From the NCBI GenBank assembly GCA_016744455.1, contig JADGEI010000004.1:62001-126000 (forward strand): a DNA stretch of 64,000 nucleotides. The letters are read 5' to 3'. The DNA comes from Alcanivoracaceae bacterium. GTDB lineage: Bacteria; Pseudomonadota; Gammaproteobacteria; Xanthomonadales; Marinicellaceae. This document shows, one piece after another, positions 1,047 to 12,636 of this stretch (its first letter is position 1; every line of letters starts with the position of its first letter). The notes under the pieces are model-generated. The model did no database searches and had not been told where the DNA came from. It worked only from the letters and a program-made list of their open reading frames with translations. A program made the position numbers and the translations under genes.

Positions 1047-1625
1047 GAAACAAATAGAATTATAAAAGCAGGCCAACTGTTTTAATTGTAATGTAACGAA
1101 TATATGGAATGCTGTCAGGCATCAAATCGTGGCAGCATTTACTGAGTATAGTATTTTGTTAGAACACCATTCAATTTATATAAACCCAACCAATTTTTCA
1201 ATTCTCATTTCCCCAAAAATAACCGTAGGGCAACCTAATAATGGGCATGGTTACTTCAAAAGCATCCCTTCCAAATATGTGTGATAGCGCCCAAATAAGT
1301 GTGTCTTACACAGGCGCATCTATAGCAACTGTATCGTCATAGAAATCAAGGTTCTTTTTAGTAAGCATGATGTATTCTCATTAGTTAGATATTAATAGTA
1401 ATTTTCATTCTATATTTAGTGTCATTCAGATAAAAATCCTCTCAACAATCTCAGAAAATTGGTCATATTTAAGAATATTTCTTAACATTATTTCCGCATA
1501 TCTTTAATAAACATTGCTGATCCATTATTTCTCATTTCTATATTAAATAATTCAGTGGCTCGAATTAAATCACTTAATTTTTTGTATCCGTAATTGATTG
1601 ATGAAAAAGACTTTTTGTTATATAT

Positions 1626-2222
1626 TTAATTTGCAACTCTATTTAATATCGCCCAACCATCATCTTCAGACGTCTGCTCTATCGCTCTTCTTAGTAATTT
1701 AACCAATGCAGTATCTTTTCTTAAACTGGCTTTTGATTTCTTTTTTACAGCCGAAGGTTGGGGACTATCTGCTTTTTGTTCTTGTTCGATAACTAGATTT
1801 TCAGTATATATAAAGGGAGAACACGCATCGACAAAAGGTTGAGGAGTTTTCTTTTCTCCAAACCCATAAACAGGTAATCCGCTTTCAAGAATTCTTAAAA
1901 CCAAAGGCGTAAAATCACTGTCACTGGTCATCAAAGCAAAAGCATCAATGTTTTTGGTATATAACAAATCCATCGCATCAATTATCATCGCTGAATCTGT
2001 GGCATTTTTACCTTTCGTGTAGGCAAACTGTTGCATTGGACGAATGGCATGAGCATGTAATCTATCTATCCAACCTGATAAAGTTGGGTTATTCCAATCC
2101 CCATGTGCATGACGCACATTGACCATTCCATATTTTGCCAGTTCTTCGAGAACTCCTTCAATTGAGTTATGGCTGACATTATCGCAATCGATGAGTAATG
2201 CTATTCGTTTTCTTTCTGACAT
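1626..2222 (-). CDS. NYN domain (LabA/PIN-like) protein, apparently truncated inside its C-terminal OST-HTH/LOTUS-like domain
   Basis: Conserved acidic NYN residues (ALLIDCDNV, KNATDSAMIIDAMDLL, MTSDSDFTPLV); after the TAA at 1626-1628 the same frame continues IYNKKSFSSINYGYKKLSDLIRATELFNIEMRNNGSAMFIKDMRK to a stop at 1488. Confidence 0.85.
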   Translation of the reverse strand: MSERKRIALLIDCDNVSHNSIEGVLEELAKYGMVNVRHAHGDWNNPTLSGWIDRLHAHAIRPMQQFAYTKGKNATDSAMIIDAMDLLYTKNIDAFALMTSDSDFTPLVLRILESGLPVYGFGEKKTPQPFVDACSPFIYTENLVIEQEQKADSPQPSAVKKKSKASLRKDTALVKLLRRAIEQTSEDDGWAILNRVAN

Positions 2223-2292: not shown

Positions 2293-5200
2293 CTATGTCT
2301 CACTTACTTTAGACTGATATTCACTCACCCAAGATTCAAATTTATTAGTGGTGCTTTTAGTTCGCCTATTCATACTAAACTCATTAAAAATAAAATCAAC
2401 AGGGTCATTGGGTGATTTCTCTAAAGCACTTTTTACCAAGCCATGTCTTTCAGGATACGCAATAGTATTCCACTCTCTAGGAATACCAAACGCATTTGCC
2501 CCACGCCACTGAACAATACTTTCGATATCATCTTTAGATTTCCATACTGTTACTTCACCTGATTGATGTTTCACAATTCCAGCCCACCCGCTTATAATAG
2601 ACTCTATATAATCAAGTTGTTTCTTGGTTGTCCTTGCTAAATTATGTTTCCAACCGATATCAGATACTAACTCATGAAGAGATATTGCACTTTTTTCATC
2701 TAAAATCTCTTTAGCCATTCCATCCAGTGTTTTCTTATAACTGTCTTTAAAGTATTTATTTGCATTAATTACAATTTCATTATTTTGTTCTTCGCCTTCC
2801 TCAAGCTCAAGTTGAGTAAAAGCAACAAACTCTTCTTCCTCATCTTCTTGAGCTAAATCTAAACTCAGCAAGTCATTTAACTGATTGTGTAATTTTTCTA
2901 TAATAGCCTTCTCATCAATAAAGTAATCGGTTGACCAGATTCTCAATAACTTCCAACCTAGATTTTCCAAGATTATATGTCTTACGCGATCTCGATCTCT
3001 TGCTGCAGGGGAACCATGATATGTGGCGCCATCACATTCTATGCCAGCTAAAAACTGGCCAGGCTTATTAGGATGAATAACACCTAGATCAATTCTAAAT
3101 TTACTAACACCAATTTGAGTTTGAACTATCCAGCCTTTCTCTCTTAATGCATATGCAACACTTTCTTCAAAGTAACTATCAAATTGGTCAATACCATAAT
3201 TTGCCTCTGCAGTTTCAGGCAATGCAATTGGGCCTTTTTCTGCATATTCCAAGAAGTATTTAAGATGTTTTACTGCAAGAGCGCTAGTGCGACTTAAATC
3301 AATCATTGTATAATCAAAGCTTGAAAACACATGAATTTCAGTAGTTGCCCTAGTGATTGCGACATTTAGACGCCGTTCACCACCTTGTTTATTAAGTGGA
3401 CCAAAATTCATACTCATAGTCTTGGCTAAAGGCTCTACAGGCCCATATCCTAAACTTATAATAATAATATCTCGTTCATCACCTTGAACTGACTCAAGAT
3501 TTTTAACAAAAATTGGATCGTAGTTTTTATTACCTTGGAAAAATGGTTCTAGATCAGGATACTTGCGCCGGCGATCATCTAAGCAATCTTCTATGCATCT
3601 TTGCTGTTCCGAGTTTAATGTAACAACACCAATAGTGTATTTCTTACGTTTGTCAGATAACCTCTCAACAATATAATCTGCAACAGCATTAGCTTCTTTA
3701 ATATTATTTCTGTTTTTGCCTTTAGAATATAAACCGTCTATTTTGTGCAAGCTTACAGCACTTTCTTTAGTTTCAGCACAAGGGAATGTTACTAATGAGT
3801 TTTCATAATAGTGACTATTTGAAAAGGCAATTAAACTTTCATGGCGGCTTCTATAATGGCCAGTTAATCGATGGTGAGTTAATCGAGCTGATAAAGCCTG
3901 ATCTAAAATACTTTCTAAATCAGCTTCATCAGTTAAATCGTCAGAACTGCTTTTTGAAAAGAAATTTGTTGGAGGCATCTGTTTAGGATCACCAACAATT
4001 ATAACATTTTTACCTCTGGCAATCGTACCAACAGCATCCCAAACAGTAATCTGTGAGGCTTCATCAAAGACCACTAAATCAAAAGCATTAAAATGAGCAG
4101 GTAAAAATTGGGAAACAGAAAGCGGTGACATCATAAAACATGGCGTAAGGTGAAGTAGCTTTTCACCCATTTCAGTTATCAGTTTTCTGATAGGTTTATG
4201 ATTGCTTTTTTTATGAAATTCTTTAGAAAGAACACCATACTCAGCAGGAGATTGAGGCGAATTTGGATCAGGAGTACCAGCCGCAACTATCGACGAGATA
4301 TACTCCGCAGTTGTTGTCGCGACTAATACATCTAGATCTCTAAATTCTTCAATCAAATTTTCATGTTGTGATGTTCTGAAAGTTCTTAAAGCATCTGAGC
4401 GGTCAATCAGTATAGGTGCTAACCAAGCACATAAAGCATTTGTTGTTTGGTGTACCGCATCTTCAGCTTTAATTTCTCGACCTTCTAAACATGTAATAAC
4501 ACTATGGAGGCCTTTACTGCTGGCGACCTTCTTAGCTTCAAGCCAATTACACCAAACATTGATTTTCGGCTCTAATGAAATTACTTCATCACAAGAGTGA
4601 ATAAATTCAGGTATTGTACTGTCTACTGCAGCAGTCCCTCCAAGAGCTTTGAAAGCATCAATATCCTTCTTAAATTCAGAATAACTTTCTGAGTAATTAT
4701 CACTGACTGTTGCTAAAGCAGATGACTGATAGAATTCGAAGTTATCTACAACTTTTTCCTTTAAATTACTGATTAGTGCCGATGGGTTAGATAGTCTTCC
4801 CGCAACTTTTCTTGTGATATTAAACAATCCTATAGATTCCTTATACTTAGAACTTAAATGTTCACCAGAAGTATCCCACCCTTGCCATATTTTATCTTGT
4901 TCAAAGTCACTAATGTACTTAGTCACTTTTTGTGCAGTACTATTTATCTCATTTAACAATGATAATTCTTCAAATGTTATTTCACCATGTACACCAGCTA
5001 TATTTAATGCTTTTATGATTTTTCTTTTTGCAAACCATTTCAACGGCCAAATTTTTTGTTGTGCTATTTGAAATGATGTAAGCCAGTCTGATGTAGAATG
5101 GCTAGATATTTTATCAAGTGCAAATTTTAGTTTAGAATTACTGAATAGCTCATCAGTTATTGTCTTATATTTGGTTAATAACTTTAGTTTTCCAATTTCA

Positions 5201-8064
5201 TCTCTAGCACTTTGTTTATAAACAAAACTTAATTGAGATGTTTTTTGTTCAATTAAAGAAGAAACTAATACATATAATTCCGAGTAGTTTTCATTGTATT
5301 CATCTATATCTGTCAACTGTAATAAATCAACTACTTCGGCAAAGTGTTTTCTTAATATTTGAGTTGAATTTTTAACTTTCTTGATTGCTAAAATCAACTT
5401 TGATTGCCAAGCATGTGACCAGTTATCATTTTGAATAATGGATAAATCAGAAAGGTTTAAATTTTCTATATCAGAAAATGCTAAACCTAACTTTTTAGCC
5501 GTATCATATAAATCATCTAAGTCTTCCTTTGAGCCAACGTGAGAGTTTTCATAAGAGTCTCCCCACCCAAGGTTTACTTTTGTAATATCTTTATATCTAA
5601 CATACCTAGATATTGCTTGTCTTGGTGTTATACCTAGAGACGATTCTTTATGAAGTTCATTAACATAAGCATTTAAACTTTTACGCATGTTAAACAACTT
5701 ATCTGCATTCTCACTCCAATCTTTACTAGAAGCAGTCTCGCGTGTAGACCATGACTTTTTGAGTTGTTCTAAGATTGCTCTTTTATTGGCTTTTTTACTA
5801 TGAAGCTCTAAGCATAAGTGATCTAAACCAATTTTATGAAGACGACTATAAACAACGTTCAATGCAGCCATTTTCTCTGCAACAAATAAAACTTTTTTAC
5901 CTTTAGCTAAGTTATGACAAATGATATTTGCTATTGTTTCTGACTTACCAGTACCAGGAGGGCCTTCTAAAACAAAATCCTGAGTTTTTGTTGACGCATC
6001 TATAGCGACTAATTGAGAACTATCAGCATTTAATGGGGCAAAAACATCAGTAGGCTTTAGTAAATTATCTACGTCATTTTGGTCTATAAATTGAACATCT
6101 TGCTCATAAGTCTTTTGAGGGTTATCGACTAAATGCTTAACAAACATGTTAGATTTTAAATCGTTAACTCTATCTTTTAAATCCTTCCACATTAAGTACT
6201 TTGCAAATGAAAAGGTACTTAAAACAAGCTCTTCTACAACTTCAAAACCTTTAATGTCTTTAATTTTATCCCTGACGAACGTCCAAATTACATCTACATC
6301 AATTCCACTTTCATCTTTAGGTAATTCTTCATTTAATCGAGATAAGTCAACTTCGTAATCGTTTTGTAAGAATTCTATCAAGGTAGCATTGAAAATAGGG
6401 TCTTCTCCATCTCTTTGTTTAATTTTGATTTTTGATCGAGCACTTTTTCTTATTAACTCCGCAGGCAAAAGGATTAGAGGTGCCTGAAACGTTCTGTCGC
6501 TTTCAGGTGTTTCCTTCCATTTAAGCATACCAACAGCAAGGAAAAGAGTATTGGAACCTCCTTCTTCAATATCATTTTTTGATTTTCGGTATAAAGAAAG
6601 TAAGTTTTTTTCTAATTTTTTAGAAGAGTTATTCGCGATTAATATATTGCTTTTTAATTGTTCTTTTGCAAATTCTGTTTGTAAATCATTGCCCACTTTA
6701 AATTTAAAAAGTTCTTTATCTCGTGCTTCATTGGCATAAGGAGTATCACCAGCCGTAATAAAATCAAAACTTTGATTTGAAGCCAACTCATCCTCTAACG
6801 AAGCGATATCAGGACAAAATAATTTAACTGCAACAGCTGACTTAGATAAGTTTAAGAGCCTATTTCTTTTTGTGAGATCAAGTAGTTTCCTTTGCCACTG
6901 TTCTACTCGCCCATCTGGCGTATCTATATCAGGAAGTTCCTCCTTTCTAACTGGAGGTAGTGGCGGAGCAACGGGTAAAATTTGAACCTTGGTATTGGCC
7001 TCGTTCAATTCTGCTGAAATAGAGTTATCCCCTATTGTAGGAATTGGTTTTATTTGCCTTTTTCTTGCTTGCGTTAAATCAATTGCATAGACAAACTTAT
7101 CTTCAGAGTCCTCTAAAATTATTTGATCAGCATGTTCAATCGCTTGACCAAAAGTAATAGGCGAATCAGAAGTAGCCAATGTCGTTTCAAATAGCACTAA
7201 GTCTTTTGATGCCACACGTTTTCGAATATCCATTGAATCGTCATTAGTGAGTAAAGAAAAGCATTCATCAATTAGCCAAACGCCACAACACGCATGATTA
7301 TCAGTAATAGCGATAATTGAATTTAATCCAATATGCTCTAGACAAGCTGAAAATAATAATGACAAATCTAAGCAAGCCGCAGTTTTATGATTTTTTATTT
7401 CATTAGGCAACCTAATTCTTTGACCAGAATAAGCAAAGCTAGCAGGCGGATTAACATAAGCTATCGACTCATTTGAAATCACATTCCACAATGCAGCAGC
7501 CATTAGATAAGGTCGTTCCCTCGTTTCTGATTGATACCCATCTAATCTAGATTCATGCCCTGCGGACTTCATTATATCGGATGATTTTTTTACCAGTTCC
7601 GATATGTAATTTGCATTGGGGCAAGAAAAAGCCGCAAGTAATTCAGCCATTCTTTCCTCACCACCCCAGTAATTTTTAGGCAGTAAATTTGTTTGGTAAG
7701 TTTGTTTTGCAATTACCACATCAGAGCTATAGAGAGTGAAATTCAAATTAATTTCAATTTGCTCAGTTAATGCATCTAAATATTCGTTTGATATTTTAAG
7801 CAGTCGTTTTTGTAATAAGAGTGTATGACCAGCCTCAAGTGAGTCCACATGCCATTCTTCAGGGGAGAAAACTTTTGGATCAGAAGTTAATACGAGTTTT
7901 AAATCTGTATAAGTTTTGTGGGAAATATCAGGATCAATTGTTTTTGAACAATTCAATTCAAGAGATGTAATTAGTGGGTAGTGATTTTGCTGAAATGCAA
8001 AAGAGTACACTTTAGCTATTTCTGCATTAATGTTTAATTTTTCCATTGTTTTCTCTTGGCTCAT
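2293..8064 (-). CDS. Giant DUF4011 / SF1 helicase / Vsr-like (DUF559/MTES_1575-type) endonuclease / DUF3320 protein, predicted defence
   Basis: GPPGTGKSETIANI Walker A, VVFDEASQ Walker B, VGDPKQMPPTNFF, VQGDERDIIIISLGYGP, LNVAITRA; REase-like FRIDLGVIHP...AGIECDGATYHGSPAARDRDRVRHIILENLGWKLLRIWSTDYF; N-terminal RQRKLLDLTKRNRLLNL-type DUF4011 motif. Confidence 0.88.
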   Translation of the reverse strand: MSQEKTMEKLNINAEIAKVYSFAFQQNHYPLITSLELNCSKTIDPDISHKTYTDLKLVLTSDPKVFSPEEWHVDSLEAGHTLLLQKRLLKISNEYLDALTEQIEINLNFTLYSSDVVIAKQTYQTNLLPKNYWGGEERMAELLAAFSCPNANYISELVKKSSDIMKSAGHESRLDGYQSETRERPYLMAAALWNVISNESIAYVNPPASFAYSGQRIRLPNEIKNHKTAACLDLSLLFSACLEHIGLNSIIAITDNHACCGVWLIDECFSLLTNDDSMDIRKRVASKDLVLFETTLATSDSPITFGQAIEHADQIILEDSEDKFVYAIDLTQARKRQIKPIPTIGDNSISAELNEANTKVQILPVAPPLPPVRKEELPDIDTPDGRVEQWQRKLLDLTKRNRLLNLSKSAVAVKLFCPDIASLEDELASNQSFDFITAGDTPYANEARDKELFKFKVGNDLQTEFAKEQLKSNILIANNSSKKLEKNLLSLYRKSKNDIEEGGSNTLFLAVGMLKWKETPESDRTFQAPLILLPAELIRKSARSKIKIKQRDGEDPIFNATLIEFLQNDYEVDLSRLNEELPKDESGIDVDVIWTFVRDKIKDIKGFEVVEELVLSTFSFAKYLMWKDLKDRVNDLKSNMFVKHLVDNPQKTYEQDVQFIDQNDVDNLLKPTDVFAPLNADSSQLVAIDASTKTQDFVLEGPPGTGKSETIANIICHNLAKGKKVLFVAEKMAALNVVYSRLHKIGLDHLCLELHSKKANKRAILEQLKKSWSTRETASSKDWSENADKLFNMRKSLNAYVNELHKESSLGITPRQAISRYVRYKDITKVNLGWGDSYENSHVGSKEDLDDLYDTAKKLGLAFSDIENLNLSDLSIIQNDNWSHAWQSKLILAIKKVKNSTQILRKHFAEVVDLLQLTDIDEYNENYSELYVLVSSLIEQKTSQLSFVYKQSARDEIGKLKLLTKYKTITDELFSNSKLKFALDKISSHSTSDWLTSFQIAQQKIWPLKWFAKRKIIKALNIAGVHGEITFEELSLLNEINSTAQKVTKYISDFEQDKIWQGWDTSGEHLSSKYKESIGLFNITRKVAGRLSNPSALISNLKEKVVDNFEFYQSSALATVSDNYSESYSEFKKDIDAFKALGGTAAVDSTIPEFIHSCDEVISLEPKINVWCNWLEAKKVASSKGLHSVITCLEGREIKAEDAVHQTTNALCAWLAPILIDRSDALRTFRTSQHENLIEEFRDLDVLVATTTAEYISSIVAAGTPDPNSPQSPAEYGVLSKEFHKKSNHKPIRKLITEMGEKLLHLTPCFMMSPLSVSQFLPAHFNAFDLVVFDEASQITVWDAVGTIARGKNVIIVGDPKQMPPTNFFSKSSSDDLTDEADLESILDQALSARLTHHRLTGHYRSRHESLIAFSNSHYYENSLVTFPCAETKESAVSLHKIDGLYSKGKNRNNIKEANAVADYIVERLSDKRKKYTIGVVTLNSEQQRCIEDCLDDRRRKYPDLEPFFQGNKNYDPIFVKNLESVQGDERDIIIISLGYGPVEPLAKTMSMNFGPLNKQGGERRLNVAITRATTEIHVFSSFDYTMIDLSRTSALAVKHLKYFLEYAEKGPIALPETAEANYGIDQFDSYFEESVAYALREKGWIVQTQIGVSKFRIDLGVIHPNKPGQFLAGIECDGATYHGSPAARDRDRVRHIILENLGWKLLRIWSTDYFIDEKAIIEKLHNQLNDLLSLDLAQEDEEEEFVAFTQLELEEGEEQNNEIVINANKYFKDSYKKTLDGMAKEILDEKSAISLHELVSDIGWKHNLARTTKKQLDYIESIISGWAGIVKHQSGEVTVWKSKDDIESIVQWRGANAFGIPREWNTIAYPERHGLVKSALEKSPNDPVDFIFNEFSMNRRTKSTTNKFESWVSEYQSKVSET

Positions 8065-8362
8065 TTCTCTTCCCAGATATTTTTTTTATAATTTTTTTAT
8101 AATATTATTAAAATACTTATCTCATATAATAGTCTAACTCAATCGTATATTCTCTAGAAAGAATACTACCACTTTAAGTACTTACATATTATTCGTTAAA
8201 TACTCATATCCACATCCTACTAATAAATATATCGTCATAATGTGTTACTTTTCAAATTAATCTCTCAGTTGTATTGAGTACTAATGACTTTGTCTCCGTT
8301 GATTGGTTATATTAATAGACTTTTCTACTTTTAAACACTATTGCTTCTCAAGGGTATTACAG

Positions 8363-10702
8363 CTAATTTAGAGCTAGGTTTTGCATATGAATAGACTTGG
8401 ATTTTAATCCTGCTCGCATATGTCTATAACGTAAATAATCAGCGACTTCTTGCTCATGTGTTGAGATAATCACCTGCCTATCTTTTAATTCAACTCTTAA
8501 AAGGTCACTCAATGAAGCAATATTAATTTCATCCATAGACTGTGTAGGATCATCAATAAGAACAAACGATGTGTTAGCATATTTACGATTTAACGATAAG
8601 AAAAAAGCCAATGTAAGTGCAGCCACTTGCCCACTACTTATGGATAATACAGCATCATATGATGTCCCATCAGCTGTAAAGAAACTCAAGCTCTTATTTT
8701 TATTCCCAACTTTCTTCTCCGCAGTATCTATAAACATACCTAGGCCACTCTGATAGTTCTGTATCAACCTTCCACTGTATATATGAAATAGAGATTCAAT
8801 TTGACCCAAGGTTTCACTTGAATATTCGTTCTTGGTTTTTGTGGCTATTCCTGATATTTTATCCAGATCAGCTACTAGTTCATCAACCACAAACTTTTCA
8901 TCTTTGCATTTATGTTGTTTTTTAAGAGTTGATTCAAGTTCGTTATTTATAAATTGGTAATAGTGAAATTGTATGTAGCTTTTTTTAGCTAAAACATCTG
9001 ATATTAATACTTTCTCTACCCCCTCTACATTGTTGAAATTATTAACAAAGAGAGTAATAGCTCCATCCAACAAAACATCACTTTCATTTTTCCTCAGGGA
9101 AAGCACTTTCATTTTGATGTTATCAAAACGAGCCTGCTGTGTGGCATTATCTTCGGCATAGTCATCTTCAAAATTAATATTATGATACTTGAGCCTATCT
9201 ACGATACTCTGAATAGCTTCTATCTTGTTTTTGTTTTCTTCCAGATCCTTAAAAAGGGCGAGATTAAAACTTGACTCAGTCGTTTTCTGTTTTGATAATA
9301 TCGAAGCCATACATGACTTTTTTAATTCTCCAAGTTGTTTTATACAGATTCTAAATTCTGAATTTTTTTGGTCAATAAATAATCTAATACTTTCAGACCT
9401 CAATTCAATAGCTTCGAGTAATAACACATTTTGATTATAGTCAAAACCACATAATGGGCATTCGTGACTTTGTTCTTTTAACTCGGAGAGCTTTTCCATG
9501 AGTGATTTTCTTATTAAATCTATCTCCGTTATTTTCTTTACGGATCCATCGATTCCTTTCACAAGCGAATCTCGTTTAACAATTTTTTCGCGAAGCTCTT
9601 CTATTTTATCACTTTCTAAATCCTGCAAGAAAGTCAAATGTTCCAACCTGATATCTAGCTCTCCCAAAGCTAGAGTTTCACGTTGTTTTTCAAAAGCCTT
9701 AATAGCTGTATTCTTCTCCACCAAATCATTATGACGGTCAAGGTATGGACCAATTCTTATAGCATCAACGAAATGGATTTTTTTAACAAAATTTGATATC
9801 AACTCATTCTTTAAACGCAAGTCAACTTCTCTAATATTAATTACTATGTTTTCAAGTAGAGCTAATTTGTTCATGAGTGAATTGAAATCAGCATACGACG
9901 CACTGACAATTGGCTTTTTTTTGTCCCACTGTTCGATAAGCTTTGTTAATCCAAGCCTCTTATATTGGGTTGATGGTAATTCCTCACCGATCCTTTGTTT
10001 CAGGATGTCAATGTCTTTCTGGTATCCACTATAAATTGTGCTAAGCTCTTTTGACTTAGCCTTAGTACTAGTAAGTAACTCCTTATTTCTAAAAATTTTC
10101 TCTTCGATTTCATCTAGTTTGATCAAGTGAGATATTTGTTCAAAACGCGACTTATTGTCAATACTTTCATCAGGAACAATAATTGGATTATTTTCCTGGG
10201 ACATATAATTTAAGATTGAATAATTATTTAGAAAATATTCACCAAAAACACTTTTAAGGTAACTATCTTCATCAACAATGAACTCACCTTCATCAACACT
10301 CGTATTGAAAGACTCTAATAAAAATAGCTTAAAGATACTAAACTCTCTTGGTTTATGATTTTTCTTATTATCAAGTTCAATTTTAGAAGCTCTTCGCATT
10401 AATATTATTACTTCATCACCTCTTTTAAACTCTGCTTTTATAGCAACGTCTCCACTTGATTTGTTATGTCGATAAAGATTCTTTTCATACTGCCTATTAG
10501 ACGCTATATTAATAGCTTTGGCTAATGCCTTGATTCTTGGAATTGCACCACAAAATAGTAATTGTAAAGCATCAAAAATAGTAGTCTTCCCGAATCCATT
10601 TGGACCATCAAATACGACAAGATCGAATTCAAAATTTTCGTCAAACTTCTCAAAAATCTTGAAGTTATTAATACTTAACCTACTTAGTTTCCATTTTTCC
10701 AC
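8363..10702 (-). CDS. SMC/Rad50-like ABC ATPase of a Lamassu/ABC-3C-type system (LmuB/DdmC-like)
   Basis: Walker A GPNGFGKTTIFDALQLLF, coiled coils, zinc hook CPLCGFDYN, SSGQ signature, Walker B FVLIDDPTQSMD. Start moved from the TTG at 10720 to a GTG at 10702 because AAGGAG lies 7 nt upstream of that GTG. Confidence 0.85.
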   Translation of the reverse strand: MEKWKLSRLSINNFKIFEKFDENFEFDLVVFDGPNGFGKTTIFDALQLLFCGAIPRIKALAKAINIASNRQYEKNLYRHNKSSGDVAIKAEFKRGDEVIILMRRASKIELDNKKNHKPREFSIFKLFLLESFNTSVDEGEFIVDEDSYLKSVFGEYFLNNYSILNYMSQENNPIIVPDESIDNKSRFEQISHLIKLDEIEEKIFRNKELLTSTKAKSKELSTIYSGYQKDIDILKQRIGEELPSTQYKRLGLTKLIEQWDKKKPIVSASYADFNSLMNKLALLENIVINIREVDLRLKNELISNFVKKIHFVDAIRIGPYLDRHNDLVEKNTAIKAFEKQRETLALGELDIRLEHLTFLQDLESDKIEELREKIVKRDSLVKGIDGSVKKITEIDLIRKSLMEKLSELKEQSHECPLCGFDYNQNVLLLEAIELRSESIRLFIDQKNSEFRICIKQLGELKKSCMASILSKQKTTESSFNLALFKDLEENKNKIEAIQSIVDRLKYHNINFEDDYAEDNATQQARFDNIKMKVLSLRKNESDVLLDGAITLFVNNFNNVEGVEKVLISDVLAKKSYIQFHYYQFINNELESTLKKQHKCKDEKFVVDELVADLDKISGIATKTKNEYSSETLGQIESLFHIYSGRLIQNYQSGLGMFIDTAEKKVGNKNKSLSFFTADGTSYDAVLSISSGQVAALTLAFFLSLNRKYANTSFVLIDDPTQSMDEINIASLSDLLRVELKDRQVIISTHEQEVADYLRYRHMRAGLKSKSIHMQNLALN

Positions 10703-11354
10703 GTATATACTCCTTAACAACTAAATCATAATCATTCAGATTTTCCTTCACCAATCCATCTATTTTTTCTTCAAAATTTAACATGCCCTCATTATTGATA
10801 GAATCCATATAAATTTCATGGACATCCTTAAGAGACTCTTCACTTACAGGTACCTCTAAAAAAGGTATCTTAATAAAAAAACGAGCGACAATACTATATT
10901 CAGTTGGTAGTTTTGGATTACGTTTATACAAATTAAATGAATTTTTATCTGAAATAATTCTATTGAAATCATCAAAATTAAATCCATTTATCACTTCAAT
11001 TTCCTCTTGGGAATAATATAATACGTATTTTTTAAAATAATATGGGTTCTCTTCAATAGAAAATATTTTTTGTTCATACAGATCAAAAGAACACAACTCA
11101 TTAATATTCAAGAGTATTACTAAATCAGTGTTTTTTTCGAATGCTGGATCTTTTTTTATACTTTCAGGTAAACACTCTTCAATGTCGAAATTATACTCCT
11201 CCGGCTTAAGTAGTTTATCAGCTTCATGAACGACTAAAAACCTTTTATCTTCTCCATTTAGCTTTTTAAAGAACTCATATTGACCTGAACTTTCAACGGT
11301 TTCAAAACCATATAATGAACTGGTCGCAGCTTGTTTTAGTATTTTTTTAATCAC
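10680..11354 (-). CDS. Small middle component of a Lamassu/ABC-3C-type system (LmuC/DdmB-like by position)
   Basis: 224 aa; GTG start with GGAG 6 nt upstream; overlaps the preceding effector gene and the following ATPase gene; no recognisable enzymatic motif. Assignment rests on gene order and size. Confidence 0.6.
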   Translation of the reverse strand: MIKKILKQAATSSLYGFETVESSGQYEFFKKLNGEDKRFLVVHEADKLLKPEEYNFDIEECLPESIKKDPAFEKNTDLVILLNINELCSFDLYEQKIFSIEENPYYFKKYVLYYSQEEIEVINGFNFDDFNRIISDKNSFNLYKRNPKLPTEYSIVARFFIKIPFLEVPVSEESLKDVHEIYMDSINNEGMLNFEEKIDGLVKENLNDYDLVVKEYIRGKMETK

Positions 11355-12636
11355 TTAGATCTCCACATGCCTTATCCACAGATACAAATTTAATGCGCTT
11401 AGCCTTAACAACCTTATTCTCAATTGATTCTTGTCTCTCTAAACTAATAGTGTCACTTATATTGCTATTGTGAGTAAACTTTCCATTATCTCGAAACATA
11501 TTCTTTAAATCCAACTCATCTTCCCTCATAGAAACAATGAAATTATCAAATTCATACAACACATTTAACAATGAACAATTATCTCGAATGGCATCAATGT
11601 TACTTACAATCTTTTTAAATACTCTTTTCCTTGTTATTCCACTCAATTCTAACGGAGAAGGAAGGTATTTTTCTTGTTGAATTGAATTGTAATGAGGTAT
11701 GTTATTATTAGAGATAAAACTAGGTAAACAGCAAATGATATTTATATAACGGTCAACATCATTTTGACTGTAATTCGCAAATACTTTCGTTTGTTTTGGA
11801 TCCATGGAAAAGAACAGTTTCTCTAACAATAAATATTCAAGACTTGCTATGATTGTTTTGCATCTAGCTATTTCAACTACTATTTCATCATCAGCCGAAC
11901 CGTTTTCTATAAAGTCATCTATAACCAAGAGAAAGTTAGTTCTAAAAAGCTCTAATATATAAGTTTTATCTTCAGCATTCGTTACTACAGAATCTAAACA
12001 ACCCTTAATCTCAGAAAATAAGATTGGATTAGTATCAGCTGCTTTGTATTGACTTTTCTCTCTACGTTGGTTTATTGCATGAATAAAATTAACCTTCGAA
12101 TTAATCAACGAATCCAATTTGTTAAACTTATAATTAATTAACTCTTTTGAGTCATGTGAACCACAAATTTTCAAATATTTTTTTATGTTAAACTCTATAT
12201 ATGAATCTATTTCATCAGGAGAAATATGACTTGTCCCATCATGATATTTATAAAAGAGAACAGTATTTAATCCTTCTGTATAGGATGAAAAATCATCTAT
12301 TTTTACAGAAACATGGAAATATCTTTTGGTCTCGTCGTTACAATGTTTACTATGGATTTTAGCGGCATCAGATAAAGCTTTTATATATTTAGATCTGTAA
12401 GTACTTTGAGTGGCTTTTACCTGATGTACAGATATAGCTTTACCTTCAGCATCAAAAATCACGAAGTCATCAAGGTGCTCGAGTTTCAAATAAAAATTTA
12501 CGATAGTTTGATTTTCGCAAAGCATCTTTATAGCTTGATATAACGCCACTTTACCTTGGTAAACAAATCCACTCCAAGATGCAATAGCACTCGTATTTTC
12601 TATATCGTTTGAAACTTCGATCACAGTCAAAACCAT
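11347..12636 (-). CDS. Cap4/DUF4297-like nuclease effector with C-terminal assembly domain (LmuA/DdmA-like)
   Basis: N-terminal ASWSGFVYQGKVALYQAIKML...LKLEHLDDFVIF...SVHQVKATQS matches the G-x-x-YQ / E-x-x-DD / QVK motif pattern of Cap4-type REase domains; remainder mostly helical. Confidence 0.7.
   Translation of the reverse strand: MVLTVIEVSNDIENTSAIASWSGFVYQGKVALYQAIKMLCENQTIVNFYLKLEHLDDFVIFDAEGKAISVHQVKATQSTYRSKYIKALSDAAKIHSKHCNDETKRYFHVSVKIDDFSSYTEGLNTVLFYKYHDGTSHISPDEIDSYIEFNIKKYLKICGSHDSKELINYKFNKLDSLINSKVNFIHAINQRREKSQYKAADTNPILFSEIKGCLDSVVTNAEDKTYILELFRTNFLLVIDDFIENGSADDEIVVEIARCKTIIASLEYLLLEKLFFSMDPKQTKVFANYSQNDVDRYINIICCLPSFISNNNIPHYNSIQQEKYLPSPLELSGITRKRVFKKIVSNIDAIRDNCSLLNVLYEFDNFIVSMREDELDLKNMFRDNGKFTHNSNISDTISLERQESIENKVVKAKRIKFVSVDKACGDLSD

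Follow-up and report, generated by a model that had tools for sequence, protein, structure and literature searches.

In the window, i.e., the whole 64,000-nucleotide stretch of DNA analysed here, a mobile and dispensable NYN-OST-HTH nuclease gene has probably lost its RNA-binding domain to a recent nonsense mutation. It has the appearance of a commonplace gene copy, broken or shortened, and does not reveal a new system. The features of the gene and of its neighbourhood are collected in Table 1.

The NYN ORF, as read from the sequence, covers positions 1626-2222 on the minus strand, encodes 198 aa and terminates at the TAA at 1628-1626. Beyond this codon the frame stays open for 45 codons, reading IYNKKSFSSINYGYKKLSDLIRATELFNIEMRNNGSAMFIKDMRK, up to a TAA at 1490-1488, which is probably the ancestral terminator. 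An earlier, sequence-only reading of this DNA had placed the same two stops and described an NYN nuclease in which one in-frame TAA interrupts the OST-HTH/LOTUS tail. Its exact peptide was recovered when we re-read the frame, and the description stands, as OST-HTH is matched by Pfam on readthrough. The genome carries a single copy of the NYN gene, with one TAA inside it.

Table 1. Positions and strands of the interrupted NYN gene, its parts and the adjoining genes in the window.
Feature	Position	Strand	Description	Basis
198-aa product	1629..2222	-	complete NYN (PIN-like nuclease) domain (residues 6-140), linker, start of OST-HTH (from residue 170)	Pfam, alignment, AlphaFold2 model
Premature in-frame TAA	1626..1628	-	codon 199 of 244; next base A (TAAA); TAC/TAT (Tyr) in 30/30 close homologues	
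45 untranslated codons	1491..1625	-	rest of the winged helix (OST-HTH/LOTUS): last part of helix 193-203, then the recognition helix (216-223) and two wing strands (226-231, 236-241)	Pfam OST-HTH and AlphaFold2
Second TAA	1488..1490	-	near the usual end of close homologues (mostly 240-250 aa)	
ProA-like neighbour	2293..8064	-	1923-aa helicase/nuclease-like protein; same strand, followed by the NYN gene after a 70-bp gap	NCBIfam anti-phage protein ProA NF058533, 1866 bits vs cut-off 1500; PADLOC PDC-S37
Lamassu-like operon	8363..12636	-	LmuB-like ATPase (8363-10720), 224-aa unmatched middle protein (10680-11354), LmuA-like effector (11347-12636)	

Pfam NYN (PF01936) matches residues 6-140 with an E-value of 1.4e-37, scoring 130 bits where the cut-off is 24. 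For the 198-aa product alone, Pfam gives this domain and nothing else of note, with no OST-HTH match. OST-HTH becomes visible, at residues 170-235, only when the stop is bridged, with E-values of 1.7e-11 (X placed at the stop) and 4.6e-12 (stop read as a residue). Because the match appears on readthrough, the 45-codon continuation is taken as a genuine interrupted domain and not a chance open frame. Both domains are present in all 32 aligned sequences when the window gene is counted as read through, and D12, D14, D76, D82, D85, D101 and D103, which are invariant across this alignment (window gene included) and are candidate acidic residues of the NYN/PIN-like active site, are kept in the 198-aa product. 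By its sequence the protein is a LabA/DUF88-type NYN-OST-HTH RNase, its activity being predicted; the translated product has the N-terminal NYN domain of the family and lacks the C-terminal OST-HTH/LOTUS winged helix.

The read-through protein was modelled by AlphaFold2 from the 32-row alignment (pLDDT 78, pTM 0.71). Block-mean pLDDT is 81-93 across the 45-codon tail, and residue 199 sits within helix 193-203 of the winged helix. With the stop inside this helix, the 198-aa product loses all that follows, recognition helix and wing strands alike, and is predicted to be unable to complete the OST-HTH fold. Judged from the sequence it retains the nuclease domain, and judged from the model it is without the recognition helix and wing of the winged helix. 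Folding of the 198-aa product without an alignment was uninformative (pLDDT 38).

The homologues with 60-84% overall identity are spread over varied proteobacterial genomes (among them Cocleimonas flava and several MAGs), class-wide genomes and prophage-like contigs of IMG/VR. The sequence-only reading had proposed a comparison of relatives at the stop codon, and in the 30 close homologues the column is uninterrupted throughout, occupied by Tyr in every case (TAC in 17, TAT in 13). Homologues that are open across the site, with TAY in 30/30, are what is expected of a nonsense pseudogene, and they favour the recent nonsense mutation that this reading had put first among its options. The route that it had given, a single C-to-T change from CAA to TAA at a Gln position, is rejected, because every close homologue carries TAC or TAT; by inspection of the fetched homologues, Gln occurs at this column only in the more distant 'VGSQIGNQASFD'-type copies. 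The replaced residue is most likely tyrosine. With TAC or TAT in every close homologue, a third-position change to A (TAY to TAA) is the likely, parsimonious step.

It had also been reasoned that homologues ending naturally at the same residue, with no conservation of the codons downstream, would speak against an interrupted gene. No such homologue was retrieved, and none of the ~110 fetched sequences ends at or near residue 198. One candidate for a naturally short homologue, a 199-aa open frame (G738), was rejected, as its contig ends there. Across 399 genomes of the order and 369 of the class, interruptions were only isolated among the matches listed. Interruption in the NYN-OST-HTH family is uncommon but not unique. 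A prophage-borne copy (IMG/VR UViG_2880206526, L114, 4952-5763) has a frameshift after residue 106 that leaves two ORFs overlapping by 4 bases, and the homologue is intact in its sister prophages (L111-L113). A copy from another genus of the order (L133, G367:C5:72800-75000) is interrupted near residue 52 by an in-frame TAA, a position other than that of the stop in the window. Within the genus the gene is present in 2 of 11 species (genomes), some of those genomes being incomplete, and no near-identical plasmid DNA was found. The gene is accessory, mobile and dispensable.

Synonymous sites (dS) are saturated in nearly every comparison, so dating by dN/dS was dropped and a retention simulation was used instead (simple Jukes-Cantor, neutral drift, with the present sequence as starting point). 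Of the residues invariant in the nine closest relatives, the tail retains 15 of 15, the head 92/92 and the stretch ahead of the stop 12/12. Under neutrality, the simulated probability that all 15 are kept is ~0.16 after 0.05 substitutions per site and falls to 0.02 after 0.1. A fully kept tail despite saturated dS suggests that the stop arose late compared with the divergence, or that the tail is still selected, or that the stop is not real. The youth of the stop hinges on tail conservation, and readthrough use or an assembly error would yield the same pattern. Within the first 12 residues beyond the stop, three near-invariant columns out of nine are changed (S206Y, N209K and S210K, alignment numbering), and no other sequence has more than two such changes; this small excess is too little to be called decay. 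Positions 1600-1640 of the window (minus strand) hold five departures from the consensus of the close homologues within about nine codons around the stop, namely G202A, Tyr to stop, S206Y, N209K and S210K (alignment numbering).

The nonsense mutation would have acted as follows. A conserved Tyr codon of the OST-HTH domain would recently have become TAA, translation would halt after residue 198, and the product would be a nuclease domain without recognition helix and wing. Targeting to RNA should then be lost, and the leftover stump of OST-HTH may destabilise the protein. Function would then likely be lost or reduced, the lineage being able to do without the gene. As the catalytic domain is untouched by the truncation, partial function is possible.

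The main alternative, which we regard as unlikely, is a single-base consensus error in the assembly, in which case the real codon is sense and the gene intact. One wrong base is enough for this, and the tail is preserved as well as if it were translated. Substitution errors are rare, however, in the consensus of a near-complete genome, and this genome is 99.96% complete in 47 contigs. The site is also not a homopolymer indel, and the changes at S206Y, N209K and S210K make the region seem genuinely different. Leaky or programmed readthrough, giving two isoforms with and without OST-HTH, would likewise account for the conserved downstream frame and for a downstream terminator at the normal place, but we consider it very improbable. 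Such readthrough is marked by a stop shared among homologues, lying in a leaky context or accompanied by a suppressor tRNA, whereas the stop here is unique to the window genome, with no other relative having one at this position, and it is a TAA followed by A. In E. coli, TAA is read through less than any other stop, with a mean reporter signal of 0.01-0.05% (PMC11126739). No UAA-suppressor tRNA was found: among 38 tRNA-like hits in the genome, one of them degenerate, none of those that ARAGORN resolved has anticodon TTA. The readthrough option of the sequence-only reading thus has little in its favour, given the TAA stop and the lack of a tRNA with anticodon UUA among these hits. Two weak adjacent tRNA-like hits lie at G000:C40:147395-147532 (minus strand), one of which is read by ARAGORN as a tRNA with an ambiguous two-base anticodon and is probably degenerate. 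Soon after the stop there is no ATG, GTG or TTG for reinitiation (context AAT-TAA-ATA).

That same reading had also raised selection for a truncated RNase. In this case a nuclease without the RNA-binding domain would be favoured, perhaps as a deregulated defence nuclease acting with the ProA and Lamassu-like genes. The conserved nuclease domain, with all of its invariant acidic residues, and the location of the gene in a defence cluster are consistent with this. But comparative support is lacking, as no retrieved homologue ends there or is without the tail, and 32/32 aligned sequences have both domains. Moreover, the tail shows no decay except for the few changes beside the stop, the stop lies inside a helix and not at a domain boundary, and ProA is absent from the available flanks of 114 other loci, so that the partnership is not conserved. 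We judge functional truncation to be slightly less probable than an assembly error. A more specific version, in which selection removed the RNA-binding domain of a defence-island NYN nuclease that now acts as a short untargeted RNase with the adjacent ProA/Lamassu-like genes, or in which the TAA is an on/off allele, seems more doubtful still. A recent nonsense mutation in a dispensable gene remains the preferred explanation.

The neighbourhood suggests a defence cluster, although location alone is no proof of a defence role for the NYN gene. The ProA and Lamassu-like cluster spans 2293-12636 (minus strand), and the Lamassu-like operon adjoins SbcCD, lying downstream of it on the same strand. 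The ProA helicase was rejected as a partner, since no ProA-like gene is found at the 114 other NYN loci within the available flanks. This absence agrees with the statement that bacterial NYN-OST-HTH genes are not linked in any conserved way to known RNA-processing systems (2010, PMC2848206). Among the closest 20 loci no neighbours are conserved, save prophage genes common to four IMG/VR copies. Nine ABC-F flanks of genomes from the same family were used as an empty-site test; none has NYN, ProA, Lamassu-like or SbcCD genes, and no clean empty site was recognised by synteny. Our literature search found no description of anti-phage ProA.

The gene offers a clean example of how one codon removes a domain from a mobile gene of an RNase family, and a warning that a protein annotated as 'NYN-only' can be a truncated NYN-OST-HTH protein. 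Its closest known counterparts are the LabA-like bacterial proteins that combine DUF88/LK-nuclease (NYN) and OST-HTH (Anantharaman, Zhang and Aravind 2010, PMC2848206), whose ribonuclease activity is a prediction of that work. The layout, an N-terminal NYN and a single C-terminal OST-HTH, is shared with them, as is the widespread but sporadic, laterally spread distribution as a stand-alone gene without conserved neighbours; unlike in those proteins, the in-frame TAA, at residue 199 out of 244, here severs the second domain. Relatives of known structure are detectable by sequence for both halves, namely the DUF88 nuclease domain of VPA0982 of Vibrio parahaemolyticus (PDB 2qip) for the nuclease, and the OST-HTH domains of NE0665 (PDB 2kpm) and 2kzv for the half disrupted by the stop. 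In its single interruption, its preserved remaining frame and its dispensability in sister species, the gene is like the ordinary nonsense pseudogenes of accessory genes, from which it differs only in the gene concerned.
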